A stretch of 64,000 bases of DNA. Origin: Mucilaginibacter geliditolerans. GTDB taxonomy: Bacteria; Bacteroidota; Bacteroidia; Sphingobacteriales; Sphingobacteriaceae. Where the stretch lies: contig NZ_JACHBY010000008.1 of NCBI RefSeq assembly GCF_014200495.1, forward strand, positions 62,001 to 126,000, read 5' to 3'. A program made the translations under genes and the position numbers. The notes beneath the pieces were generated by a model. That model was given only the letters and a program-made list of their open reading frames with translations, was not told the origin of the DNA and did not search any database. Shown here one piece after another: positions 40,854 through 51,707 of this stretch (positions are counted from its first letter, which is position 1; each line of letters opens with the position of its first letter).

Positions 40854-40941
40854 CTTTGTGATTATGCACGAAAGGTATATATTTGCACTCCCATAATAAT
40901 GGGGGATTAGCTCAGCTGGCTAGAGCGCTTGCATGGCATGC
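40854..40941 (+). repeat. Left att repeat (attL): tRNA promoter plus 5' half of tRNA-Ala
   Basis: 88 bp that match 51588-51674 with about seven differences, all before the tRNA; the 41 tRNA bases are identical. The match runs from the TTTG -33-like box, through TATATTTG (40878-40885), to the anticodon arm (GCATGGCATGC, 40931-40941). Similarity stops exactly after this point. Confidence 0.9.
40901..40941 (+). pseudogene. Truncated tRNA-Ala(GGC) fragment
   Basis: GGGGGATTAGCTCAGCTGGC up to the anticodon loop (ATGGCAT) is intact; the 3' anticodon strand, T arm and acceptor 3' strand are replaced by island sequence (CTTACCC...). It cannot make a tRNA. It marks the left junction of the island. 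Confidence 0.9.
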
Positions 40942-41002
40942 TTACCCGTAACCCCCTTTAAATATCTCTAGAGCCACTTTTTAGTCTATTTCTCTTCTTT
41001 GT

Positions 41003-41021
41003 ACGTGCAAATTGCGTGCAA
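41003..41021 (+). promoter_or_regulatory. Possible arm-type integrase sites, left end
   Basis: Two CGTGCAA motifs (41004-41010 and 41015-41021) 11 bp apart, 62 bp inside the left junction. Four similar CACGTGCA motifs with 11 bp pair spacing lie inside the right end. This arrangement fits integrase or excisionase binding sites. Confidence 0.45.
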
Positions 41022-41325
41022 ACCTAATCTTGTTAATAAATATTGTTAATTAGTTCAAAGTTACTTTTAATTGCCAATACACATTGTGTAGTGACGATTA
41101 GATAAATGATGATTACTCCATGATTGATTTGATTAAGTGAATAAATAATTATAAAGCTCATTAAGGTTTGTTGCGATAAAGCAAGGAAGGAAACGGAATA
41201 AATGGCCTTTTTAAAAAGGCAAGTGGGTTTATGCCGTAGTCTTTCATGCGCTTCAGAAGCAACAGTCCTAACTTTGCTGGTAATTATGTATCGCCTCCCT
41301 CCCCACGTCCTATTTCAAACTTACA

Positions 41326-41973
41326 CTAAACAAAAAGGTCGCCATAGCTATTAACTCTATTGAGCTTCCTTAAATCTTCAAGAAGTTTTGTTAATATTGC
41401 TGGGGTTTCTGCATTGATGACATCTGGGTTATTCAATCTTATCGCAGTTCCTGCCATGCAAACCATTAACATTCCCTTTTGCCCTCCAACTTCAGCATAA
41501 TCGATATCAGTTCCAATGATTGCATTTCCACCATTGGCTATTGCTTCCAAACGCAATTTTGACATACACACTTCTTCTCCGTTTTTAAGCTTTTTATTCA
41601 ACCGCGTGGACTGAGTTCCAAAAAACTCTGAGATCGATGATGAAAATTCGGTCAATGCACCTTCTCCTGTAACGCATTGTGCCGTAACCATCTTCAGCAC
41701 ATTGTATTCCCACCCAACCGGATGTTGTAAGGTTATTAAGGGCACATAAACCAAATTATCTTCAACACTCTTTGTAAATTGACTTGTCAGAAGATTATAT
41801 TGATGTCTAGCATCGTATTTTTGTTGCTCGAAACATTTGTCACAATAGGCCGGAGAATCCTTGTTAAGGAAGAGGTTGATCCCTTCCTTCTTATGTTCAT
41901 CAACAATTTTATTTGAGTTGAATAAGCCGTCCTTAATTGTTGTGTTGCAGTGAGGGCAAGATGTGTAATCCAT
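41326..41973 (-). CDS. YbjQ/UPF0145-like heavy-metal-binding-domain protein with zinc ribbon
   Basis: 215 residues. A short N-terminal zinc finger (CPHCNTTI ... YCDKC) is followed by a YbjQ-type domain: VTAQCVTGEGALTEFSSSIS, EVCMSKLRLEAIANGGNAII and GTDIDYAEVGG. YbjQ domains form pentamers, and their cellular role is unsettled. In islands similar genes often accompany defence systems (recalled, not checked). First gene from the left end; possible attC-like motif downstream. Confidence 0.75.
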   Translation of the reverse strand: MDYTSCPHCNTTIKDGLFNSNKIVDEHKKEGINLFLNKDSPAYCDKCFEQQKYDARHQYNLLTSQFTKSVEDNLVYVPLITLQHPVGWEYNVLKMVTAQCVTGEGALTEFSSSISEFFGTQSTRLNKKLKNGEEVCMSKLRLEAIANGGNAIIGTDIDYAEVGGQKGMLMVCMAGTAIRLNNPDVINAETPAILTKLLEDLRKLNRVNSYGDLFV

Positions 41974-42301
41974 GTGAGGTTATCGTTGATTATTATTAAC
42001 TTAGATATTCTAATATAGGTCAGGGTGAGTTTTAATTCAACTGTAGCAAAATATTAATCCAAGAAAAACAGAAAACTTACATTTATAGAGGCATTGAATT
42101 CTTTGGATTAAAGTTAGAAGTGGTTTTGCTAGATGTTTTAAAAGTTTACACTTTCAAAAAGCCATTAACAAATAGCCTCACTTTTCATAAGCTTACGCTG
42201 TTGCAAGGCTCTCCCAAGGGCAACGTTAAGTTGGTAAAGCCTAACTTTGTTGCTAGGAAGATCATTAAATTATACGAAAAATGAAGTTTGACCTGTGTTA
42301 G

Positions 42302-42703
42302 TTAATATCCGGATTTCGTTAGAAGGTTAAGTACTTCGGTCATATTATGATTTCGTAAATATTTTAGTAATAGGAGTCTTGGAGGGTGATTACTCATATA
42401 AGATTGCCCTGGACCAGTGTATAATCCACCACCCGGGCCTGTGTAAAGACCACCCCCAGGTCCTGTGTATAATCCACCGCCAGGTCCTGTGTATAACCCG
42501 CCTTCCGGGCCTGTATAAAGACCACCGCCTGGGCCAGTATAAAGCCCACCTCCTGGTCCGGTATACATTCCTCCTCCAGGACCGGTATAAAGCCCACCCC
42601 CAGGTCCTGTGTATGCACCACCTCCTGGTCCTGTATACATTCCTCCGCCAGGTCCTGTGTAAAGCCCGCCTCCGGGTCCAGTATATCTATTTCTTGGCCA
42701 CAT
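42302..42703 (-). CDS. YTGPGGG tandem-repeat protein
   Basis: 133 residues from ATG 42701-42703 (MWPRNR). A run of 11 full eight-residue units YTGPGGGL (with M or A at position 8, one PEGG variant) plus a partial unit fills residues ~7-100. A hydrophobic-charged C-terminal tail (LLLLKYLRNHNMTEVLNLL) follows. The DNA repeats of 24 bp differ at silent sites, so the protein repeat is selected. It lies 10 bp after the 82-residue ORF, so they form an operon. No known family recognised with confidence; a self-assembling or glycine-rich ligand role is only a guess. Confidence 0.7.
   Translation of the reverse strand: MWPRNRYTGPGGGLYTGPGGGMYTGPGGGAYTGPGGGLYTGPGGGMYTGPGGGLYTGPGGGLYTGPEGGLYTGPGGGLYTGPGGGLYTGPGGGLYTGPGQSYMSNHPPRLLLLKYLRNHNMTEVLNLLTKSGY
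42322..42690. repeat. 24 bp tandem repeat array coding YTGPGGG
   Basis: About 11.5 units of 24 bp within the coding region. Units vary mostly at third positions (GGTCCTGTGTA against GGGCCAGTATA and similar). Confidence 0.8.
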
Positions 42704-42713
42704 ATTAATTGGG

Positions 42714-50163: not shown

Positions 50164-50167
50164 CTAA

Positions 50168-51373
50168 TTATTGAATAAGGTTAATTACTTTCTGATTTGC
50201 CTCGTCAATTACGGATTGATCAAAGTTGTCAAGATAAACCGCGGTTGTTCTATTACCATACTCATGGCCTAGCGCTTCTGCTATTATTTCTATACTAAAC
50301 CCAGCCTTTTTGGCTATCGTTGCCCATGAGTGTCTTGCGGTGTAGGTAGTTACCTTTTGGTCTATTTTGAGGTCTTTAATTATTCGACTTAAGTATTTGT
50401 TAATGATTTTGGTTTTATACTTAATGCCTCTAATCAATTGCTCTTCTGTGCGTGCTTTGTCATCGGCAATGGGAAGTAAATATTTTGACCGTCCTTTATA
50501 ATGATTTAAAATTTCTTCCGCCTCGGTATGTAGTTTAATGTCGTACCATTTACCAGTTTTTCTTCTTTTATAAAGTATTCTACCACCTTTAATATTTTCC
50601 TTGGTTAAAAGACAAAGGTCAACAACAGATATACCGATAAGATAAAACGATAGTATGAAATAATTCCGGTTGTCCCATGCTGGAGTATTTATGAGCAGTT
50701 CAGCATTTTTTATTGTTCTTAATATTTCCGTTTCAACGGCACGTTTCTTTGTTTTCTCTGGTCGGAGTTTGTAATCATCAAACGGATATAATCCCTTGTC
50801 AACAAGTTTTAATTTAACAGCTTTATTATAAAATATTCGGATAGTTCTTAAATAAAGATATACAGTATTGTGTTTAATATCTCTTTTAACAAGAAAACTA
50901 TTGTACTGCGTAAGAAATTGATAATCTATTGTTTCAAAATAAAGGTCATCAGTCGGATGGAAGGTCTTTAACACATTAACAGTTGATTCATAGACCCATG
51001 CATTGCCAATTTTGTTATCATCCTTTAATTGGGCTATAAGTTCCTTTGCGAATTGGTAAACAGTTTTCTTTATTTCAACTGGTTCTATAACTTGTATTAC
51101 GGGTTTAAGATAAGCCTGTATTTCAGTATCATCTGCTAACATAAGTTGAGATTGCAAATCCGCTAAATCTTTTATAAGCTTAGCATTTAGTGTTTTATAT
51201 AAAGGGTGCGACTTTAGAATTAATTTCTTAGAATCATCCCAGTCTTTTTCGTTTAAATAAATTTTTGTACTTCTTGTTGTTGTTTTTCTGTTGTGGCAAA
51301 TTTGGAAGTAGATAGGATAAGAGCCATCGGATTTTACTTTTCTTTTGTCAAGAATCAATTTAATAGATACCAT
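50168..51373 (-). CDS. Tyrosine recombinase (site-specific integrase)
   Basis: 401 residues from ATG 51371-51373 (MVSIKLILDKRKVKSDGSYP); upstream Mets fall in a CACGTG repeat region and are unlikely. N-terminal arm-binding (SAM-like) domain, core-binding domain and catalytic domain. C-terminal motifs: RRKTGKWYDI (beta-hairpin Lys), YTARHSWATIAKKAG (Arg-II), LGHEYG (His) and TAVYLDNF (nucleophile Tyr). The usual first Arg is not evident (LIGISVVDLCLLT), as in the CTnDOT-type IntDOT group, where it is replaced. It probably inserts the island at tRNA-Ala. Confidence 0.93.
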   Translation of the reverse strand: MVSIKLILDKRKVKSDGSYPIYFQICHNRKTTTRSTKIYLNEKDWDDSKKLILKSHPLYKTLNAKLIKDLADLQSQLMLADDTEIQAYLKPVIQVIEPVEIKKTVYQFAKELIAQLKDDNKIGNAWVYESTVNVLKTFHPTDDLYFETIDYQFLTQYNSFLVKRDIKHNTVYLYLRTIRIFYNKAVKLKLVDKGLYPFDDYKLRPEKTKKRAVETEILRTIKNAELLINTPAWDNRNYFILSFYLIGISVVDLCLLTKENIKGGRILYKRRKTGKWYDIKLHTEAEEILNHYKGRSKYLLPIADDKARTEEQLIRGIKYKTKIINKYLSRIIKDLKIDQKVTTYTARHSWATIAKKAGFSIEIIAEALGHEYGNRTTAVYLDNFDQSVIDEANQKVINLIQ

Positions 51374-51407
51374 AATCACATTGTTATGATCAGGCTTGCA
51401 GCTAATT

Positions 51408-51461
51408 TTCACGTGCATTTCACGTGCACATAGCGAATTTTTCACGTGCATTTCACGTGCA
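51408..51461. promoter_or_regulatory. Four CACGTG repeats upstream of the integrase
   Basis: TTCACGTGCA at 51408, 51419, 51441 and 51452: offsets of 11, 22 and 11 bp, all on the same face of DNA. Each holds the palindrome CACGTG. They fit arm-type sites for the integrase or an autoregulatory operator. Confidence 0.55.
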
Positions 51462-51587
51462 TCTGCATTTTTTCACTCACAGTATGTTTTTTTATTTGTG
51501 AGTAGAGAAAACACGTTTAAAGGTCTAAAGTGTCAATAGCTATAATTCAATGCATTGTTATCTAATGCTTTAAAAAAGATAAAACCA

Positions 51588-51674
51588 CTTTGCGATTGTG
51601 CCCGAAAGGTATATATTTGCACTCCGAAATAAGGGGGGATTAGCTCAGCTGGCTAGAGCGCTTGCATGGCATGC
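51588..51674 (+). repeat. Right att repeat (attR): promoter plus 5' half of tRNA-Ala
   Basis: Second copy of the 88 bp left repeat; begins CTTTG and includes the -33-like TTTG, the TATATTTG -7 box (51612-51619) and the tRNA 5' half to the anticodon arm. The sequence then continues into the normal 3' half. Confidence 0.9.
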
Positions 51675-51707
51675 AAGAGGTCATCGGTTCGACTCCGATA
51701 TTCTCCA
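51634..51707 (+). tRNA. tRNA-Ala (anticodon GGC)
   Basis: 74 nt cloverleaf. Acceptor GGGGGAT pairs with ATTCTCC (two G-T pairs), D arm AGCTCAGCTGGCTAGAGC, anticodon stem CTTGC/GCAAG with loop ATGGCAT (anticodon GGC), T arm ATCGG-TTCGACT-CCGAT and discriminator A. No CCA is encoded. It is complete, and its promoter and 5' half appear to be island-derived, so it is the copy that restores tRNA function. Confidence 0.95.

Follow-up and report, generated by a model that had tools for sequence, protein, structure and literature searches.

The stretch of DNA analysed here (the window) is 64,000 nucleotides (nt) long and comes from Mucilaginibacter geliditolerans (contig NZ_JACHBY010000008.1, positions 62,001 to 126,000 of the forward strand); its subject is a putative integrative island at the gene for tRNA-Ala(GGC). 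This gene, at 51634-51708, is the single tRNA found in the window by ARAGORN. The element unit measures 10,733 bp and occupies 40942-51674 when the core is assigned to the right end. The GC fraction of the island is 0.357, against 0.411 for the remaining window. The island is flanked by a direct repeat of 88/87 bp with 93% identity, made up of 47 nt (left) or 46 nt (right) of upstream DNA spanning the tRNA promoter and of the first 41 nt of the tRNA. These 41 nt are identical in both copies, and the first difference within the tRNA is at nt 42, the position from which element DNA continues the left copy and the tRNA 3' half continues the right one. A TTTG box and a TATATTTG box, spaced 19 nt, are the same in the two copies; we take them to be the Bacteroidota -33 and -7 elements. 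Genomes, contigs and loci are cited below by our G, C and L numbers. The features at the two ends are:

40849-40900, plus strand: probable native tRNA-Ala promoter, severed from the intact gene (TTTG 40855-40858, TATATTTG 40878-40885; homology to G029 and G026)
40901-40941, plus strand: displaced 5' fragment of tRNA-Ala(GGC), nt 1-41, the left attachment site (attL); anticodon loop 40933-40939
41003-41020, plus strand: putative left arm-type sites, ACGTGCA and GCGTGCA, beginning 11 nt apart
50168-51373, minus strand: tyrosine integrase (PF17293, PF13102 and PF00589); the open frame reaches 51451
51411-51461, plus strand: putative right arm-type sites, two pairs of ACGTGCA heptamers, the members of each pair beginning 11 nt apart
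51583-51633, plus strand: probable element-borne promoter ahead of the intact tRNA (TTTG 51589-51592, TATATTTG 51612-51619)
51634-51708, plus strand: intact tRNA-Ala(GGC), the right attachment site (attR), with an element 5' half to nt 41 and a native 3' half; anticodon loop 51666-51672
51719-51753, plus strand: terminator-like hairpin 3' of the tRNA, an inverted repeat followed by a T run, recognized by eye

An earlier note on this DNA had placed an island between a tRNA fragment and an intact tRNA and had read the repeat as the tRNA promoter plus the 5' half of the gene. Both statements are borne out by this layout. Three marks of a 5'-tDNA-fragment island are present: the intact tRNA and the displaced 5' fragment lie in the same orientation at opposite ends, a tyrosine integrase lies within the interval, and the target is uninterrupted in a relative (G029, and also G045 and G049). 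A search of the whole genome with the 93-bp left copy returns, besides the query, the right copy and a single weak 49-bp match, so the repeat is not a chance similarity.

The integrase gene adjoins the intact tRNA and is oriented away from it. The protein combines an arm-binding domain (PF17293), a SAM-like core-binding domain (PF13102) and a catalytic domain (PF00589). Met27 of the open frame is 97% conserved in 47 aligned integrases, that of the window included, and the start is therefore likely to lie near 51373. This start places the four ACGTGCA heptamers in the space between the integrase gene and the tRNA. At the left end, heptamer pairs were seen by eye in the eight genomes compared and are degenerate in G076. 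Residues R373, H374, H396 and Y406 are invariant in the alignment. The first Arg of the catalytic pentad is replaced, with Ser275 in 95% of the sequences, and R296 is present in 47 of 47. The IntCTnDOT subgroup, as described in PMC8138268, shares with the window its Bacteroidota host, the arm-binding domain, the missing first catalytic Arg and a conserved downstream Arg. By that description R296 would be the alternative downstream Arg, and with Ser275, R296 and its domains the window integrase appears to fit the subgroup.

Native and element-borne promoters

The relative G029 has one uninterrupted tRNA-Ala(GGC), and it aligns to the joined window flanks over 222 bp with 87% identity, across the inferred junction. 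Its upstream DNA tracks the left copy of the window for 139 nt (84%) and the right copy for 47 nt only; with the left flank included, the homology is 84% over 180 bp. Because G029 follows the left copy so much farther, the left promoter is, on this evidence, native and the right promoter arrived with the element. The earlier note had proposed to look among relatives for an empty site and for the native promoter. G029 provides both, and with its single copy it argues against relatives that lack the island already bearing the two tRNA copies.

The homology of the right promoter to G029 and to the left flank ends 47-48 nt upstream, and that to the right copy of G026 extends 192 nt. G026 is a close relative, with a SUMF gene 99% and an LDT gene 96% identical to those neighboring the island in the window. 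It has two 5'-half copies, 16.7 kb apart, at the same site and thus holds another island; none of the window cargo proteins was found in G026 apart from the integrase. Its left copy matches the window left copy at 99% over 339 nt (98% over the 52-nt promoter), and its right copy matches the window right copy at 92% over 232 nt. The leftmost 350 bp of the element are common to the two genomes in a 96% block, yet the integrases are 66% alike, suggesting that one occupant may have taken the place of another, with the left end, which is older, retained. In the G026 island the integrase (L034 ~8253-9300) matches to residue 249 only, and the frame then resembles an HNH nuclease by eye.

The opposite assignment, in which the left promoter belongs to the element and the right one is native, is highly improbable. 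Identity over the 52-nt promoter to G029, G049 and G045 is about equal for the right copy (83, 83 and 79%) and the left copy (86, 80 and 79%), and the alignment to G049 and G045 extends a little farther upstream for the right copy (66 and 56 nt) than for the left copy (54 and 54 nt), which would suit that assignment. It is nevertheless refuted by the G029 alignment unless G029 itself is rearranged. In addition, a conserved element end follows the left half, and it is the right copy that is preceded by the integrase and the heptamers. G052 speaks against it as well: its right copy and that of the RYN307 element are 98% identical over 339 nt (94% over the 52-nt promoter), whereas the element and native copies of G052 share just 23-24 nt upstream. 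As the element copy of G052 is like that of RYN307 and unlike its own native copy, the promoter there travelled with the element, and by this comparison G052 is a clear case of a differing promoter, a true swap. If the right promoter of the window likewise belongs to the element, its slightly longer alignment to G045 and G049 means that it could derive from a relative of that kind.

From about seven promoter differences and an identical run of 41 nt the earlier note had argued that the island brought its own promoter. The identity of the 41 nt and the element origin stand. The mismatch is weak proof when taken by itself, because the element and native promoters are closely similar (83%), a similarity also seen in most relatives.

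Recurrence in other genomes and the proposed crossover

We surveyed 149 genomes of the genus, several of them fragmented assemblies, with a 39-nt query from the tRNA 5' half and at most two mismatches. The half is found in 135 of them, and in at least two copies in eight. The conserved left end of the element follows a displaced half in seven of these eight and also in G038 (G000, G026, G052, G076, G090, G005, G009 and G038); the attachment site sought by the earlier note in other genomes does recur. In the eighth, G130, the 5' half occurs a second time within an intact gene that lies at the end of a contig. The fragmented genome of G005 contains a further, intact copy whose promoter is unrelated. 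All six integrases in the 149 genomes with at least 66% identity (G000, G026, G052, G076, G090 and G130) sit on the 5' side of tRNA-Ala(GGC), 175-372 bp from its 5' end, and G009 has an integrase remnant on the same side. The 3' half is present in at least two copies in 32 of the 149 genomes, where that of G130 is counted as a second intact gene; the 3'-half copy counts, taken by themselves, suggest that the usual 3'-type island is the commoner one at tRNA-Ala(GGC). In G016 (L047 ~6730-6962) two more partial tRNA-Ala 3' halves adjoin the intact gene in ~100-bp steps.

The repeat could in principle have arisen long ago by segmental duplication at the 5' end of the tRNA gene, with the integrase DNA lying between the copies by accident. 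Extra 5' halves that have no element end do exist and are what such a duplication would leave: G076 has an additional degenerate half in the other orientation, with promoter-like DNA upstream (G076:C16, L088:365-403), G130 has its intact copy on C180, and in G066 a 27-nt piece of the 5' half precedes the gene by ~80 bp. However, the same layout, integrase clade, left-end sequence and heptamer pairs recur, the junctions fall at the anticodon arm, and the uninterrupted G029 has one copy. We regard an accidental arrangement as very unlikely.

Searches for duplicated halves identify 16 islands of the 5' type (10 Ala, 2 Val and 4 Lys) and 10 of the 3' type (5 Ala and 5 Val). In the 16 pairs, disregarding differences before tRNA nt 37, the first difference falls at nt 39-45, and in two Lys cases it comes directly after the 7-nt anticodon loop. 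The 3'-type Ala fragments start at the first base of the loop in four of five islands and one base earlier in G368. Taken together, these junctions and fragment starts make the anticodon loop the simplest common crossover. The homologous block upstream of the tRNA is 41-302 bp in 14 of the 16 5'-type islands, 21 bp in G052 and 0 in G168.

Several observations weigh against reading the island as one that rebuilds the tRNA with a promoter of its own. Outside the 222 bp, the window flanks are unmatched by G029. The uninterrupted G045 and G049, with related promoters, do not separate the left copy from the right one, and the right promoter of G026 is 88% identical over 52 nt to the window right copy and 88% to the left. 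Four of the 16 pairs are weaker, since the halves lie on different contigs (G052, G076 and G118) or the pattern deviates in both (G133). Neither copy of G090, G220, G168, G128, G118 and G133 has a TAnnTTTG box within 60 nt, and the promoters there are thus unlocated. Finally, the two promoters within one genome are mostly alike over 52 nt, so most elements bring a near copy: identity is 83% in the window, 90% in G026, 96% in G076, 98% in G090, 100% in G220 and G380 and 90% in G428 for Ala, 92% in G247 and 100% in G139 for Val, and 81% in G128, 100% in G118, 85% in G113 and 89% in G133 for Lys. The exceptions are three Ala pairs, G052 (64%), G168 (44%) and G438 (64%). The mean identity between genomes is 54% for Ala, 67% for Val and 66% for Lys.

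The simplest reading of the high matching within genomes would be transfer mainly among close relatives. Gene conversion is another possible source: homologous recombination between attL and attR after insertion would keep the promoters alike, and the right promoter would then be partly host-derived. We consider this rather unlikely, and it is compatible with an island that carries a promoter. The higher identity within than between genomes is what conversion would produce, and both copies of G026 have the leader CCCATAATAAC, in which the window right copy differs. Transfer among close relatives accounts for the same pattern, though; the window copies are still just 83% alike, and G052, G168 and G438 show little matching.

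Our preferred interpretation, to which we give a probability of about 0.9, is an integrative island that swaps the promoter and 5' half of tRNA-Ala(GGC) via an anticodon-loop crossover. As far as genomes can be compared by sequence, the comparison establishes the site, the polarity and the native promoter, as well as the presence of upstream DNA in most other 5'-type islands. The CTnDOT-like integrase would cross over in the 7-bp anticodon loop of the tRNA gene, where we infer both the point and the chemistry of the exchange. The element site, attP, would bear on its integrase side a copy of the tRNA promoter and 5' half. Integration would strand the native promoter and 5' half as the displaced fragment at the left end and, at the right end, would let the element supply both promoter and 5' half for the 3' half already in place. 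Transcription of the resident tRNA presumably now starts at the element promoter, and the island is presumed to be mobile at present.

Polarity within the integrase family

An integrase match at E 1e-80 or better is found in 38 of the 399 family genomes. In a tree of 50 integrases, 45 adjoin Ala(GGC), Val(TAC), Lys(CTT), Arg(TCT) or Asn(GTT) genes, four of them with a Tyr(GTA) gene between the integrase and Ala, and five have no recognized tRNA near their start (L066, L071, L077, L078 and L079). The 45 carry provisional polarity labels. The five are unlabelled in this tree, and L071 and L079 were later labelled 5'-type on a displaced 5' half beside the integrase. The distance from integrase to tRNA has a median of 194 bp for the 5' type and 116 bp for the 3' type (Mann-Whitney p=3.7e-5), in a comparison of 20 with 25 provisional labels that is uncorrected for relatedness and includes four rows measured to tRNA-Tyr.

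The two kinds of island are intermingled on the tree. A 15-member Ala clade (support 100/99) holds both, for example 5'-type L105/L108 beside 3'-type L109-L111. The Val pair L076 and L072 differs in polarity with duplicate-half evidence for both, and the Lys pair L068 and L075 differs by provisional label, that of L068 being unverified. With duplicate-half labels only (16 against 10, 26 rows) there are six changes of polarity, all six forced by well-supported branches, and the same numbers are obtained after three long-branch rows are removed. The 45 provisional labels give nine changes, seven of them forced. These counts carry no direction of switching. The label is weakly clustered (30-40 of 500 shuffles are as low), consistent with a labile trait. 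The six changes among the 26 duplicate-half rows lend no support to a single origin of 5'-type islands. A near-palindromic anticodon loop was also considered as a general cause of switching and is ruled out: six of seven loop positions self-complement in Ala and two of seven in Lys and Val, which also show both polarities (Lys by provisional labels).

In the duplicate-half tree 24 of the 50 rows are unlabelled. They include G130, whose second copy is intact; RYN307, whose left end was not sought; G238, G251 and the 5'-side integrase of G259, each with a single 5' half; G058 and G034, with two Val genes complete by both half patterns; G123, with one 3' half; G438:C27, with two 3' halves and the 5' half unsearched; and the unsearched G177, G193, all Arg and Asn rows and the conventional Lys rows (3' half unsearched). 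The two 3' halves of G032 lie on different contigs, and L117 was dropped because it duplicates L191.

In four 3'-type Ala islands (G368, G320, G348 and G396) a tRNA-Tyr follows the displaced Ala 3' half, and a second tRNA-Tyr lies between the integrase and the restored Ala gene. With tRNA-Tyr at both ends, these elements carry the whole downstream tRNA. We judge it an even bet that one CTnDOT-like integrase family uses the anticodon loop without a fixed polarity, switching repeatedly between rebuilding of the 3' side (in some cases with the whole tRNA-Tyr) and of the 5' side with its promoter. The elements would copy whichever part of the transcription unit is severed, and tRNA promoters would thereby be moved across species. 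A literature search returned no title on polarity switching or on 5'-type islands in Mucilaginibacter, and we do not claim their absence from print. Genomic islands of Mucilaginibacter are, by its listing, the topic of PMC6316836.

Two further arrangements were seen among the related islands. In the Lys islands G113:C30 (L200, L206) and G133:C105 (L204, L209) the integrase lies beside the displaced 5' half, and the end with the promoter block is the far end. In G259:C1 (L191, ~251800-254700) one tRNA-Val has a related integrase on each side, resembling a 5'-type and a 3'-type island that share a target; a second 3' half was found there and a second 5' half was not.

Related elements and cargo genes

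The Islander survey records a 5' fragment in 159 of 3919 mapped tRNA islands (Hudson, Lau & Williams 2015, PMC4383910), and those islands are like that of the window in the displaced 5' fragment, the intact tRNA at the opposite end, the tyrosine integrase and the anticodon-centred class of site. The parts of that account dealing with such islands do not treat a carried promoter or polarity changes within one integrase family, and its main text never uses the word promoter. An earlier paper, by its title and a passage citing it, concerns recombination that involves the 5'-distal portion of a tRNA gene. In archaeal pTN3-like elements attP and the chromosomal site attB share 41 bp in the 5' half of tRNA-Leu, and the tRNA is likewise rebuilt away from its original promoter (PMC5495485, PMC8371274). 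There, however, the integrase gene is disrupted on integration and the tRNA is said to use the integrase promoter, whereas the window integrase is whole and its element brings a block that resembles the promoter of the tRNA itself. In the part of the review that discusses pTN3, such a situation is described as seldom met in bacteria, and tRNA genes struck by islands as retaining their original promoter with few exceptions (PMC8371274). The earlier note had set the 5' half carried here against the usual 3' end. The polarity is confirmed, but islands of this kind were already known; the promoter comparison and the polarity switching are the new parts. To our knowledge, CTnDOT itself does not target tRNA genes.

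Repair of the 5' half is the rarer mirror image of the usual repair. The family reverses the usual promoter retention, seemingly reversibly. Natural pairs of a native and an element promoter for the same tRNA in the same genome could reveal how a tRNA gene that is single-copy in most of these genomes tolerates promoter replacement, and could show how elements gain host regulatory DNA. Island finders that seek 3' fragments alone would overlook 5'-type elements.

In tRNA-dependent lysogeny, as outlined in PMC10865867, the element also enters a tRNA gene by a tyrosine integrase, but the target is left unrepaired, and a second tRNA gene is provided separately. The G112 element is similar in this respect and that of the window is not. 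In G112:C1 (L084, L085, L195, L196; ~73767-138802) a 65-kb insertion splits tRNA-Ala(GGC) into halves that share ~14 nt (tRNA nt 29-42) and are not rejoined. A related integrase (29%) adjoins the 3' half. Inside the insertion is a diverged but complete tRNA-Ala(GGC), which has a TATATTTG box of its own (~83152-83225); ARAGORN finds this gene, which one other search did not list. The element looks like the integrative-element counterpart of tRNA-dependent lysogeny.

No relaxase or conjugation genes, which would mark an integrative conjugative element, were matched among the island open reading frames scanned (ten against Pfam, nine against PHROGs and NCBIfam). The remaining genes of the window island, the first three of which are cargo, are:

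41326-41973, minus strand: YbjQ-domain protein (PF01906)
43148-44305, minus strand: AbiH-like protein, putative phage defence
44363-45637, minus strand: AIPR / AbiU-like protein, putative phage defence; the match to the AbiU profile leaves out its first 178 positions
45978-46430, plus strand: 150-residue protein matching PHROG 7835, a family without assigned function
46774-48666, minus strand: 630-residue protein without family match
48675-49088, minus strand: 137-residue protein without family match
49294-50115, minus strand: 273-residue protein without family match

Homologues of each of the last three proteins lie close to some of the related integrases. The island also contains a run of repeats with a 24-bp period (42384-42709), with Gly-Pro-rich open frames on the minus strand built of GGLYTGPG units.

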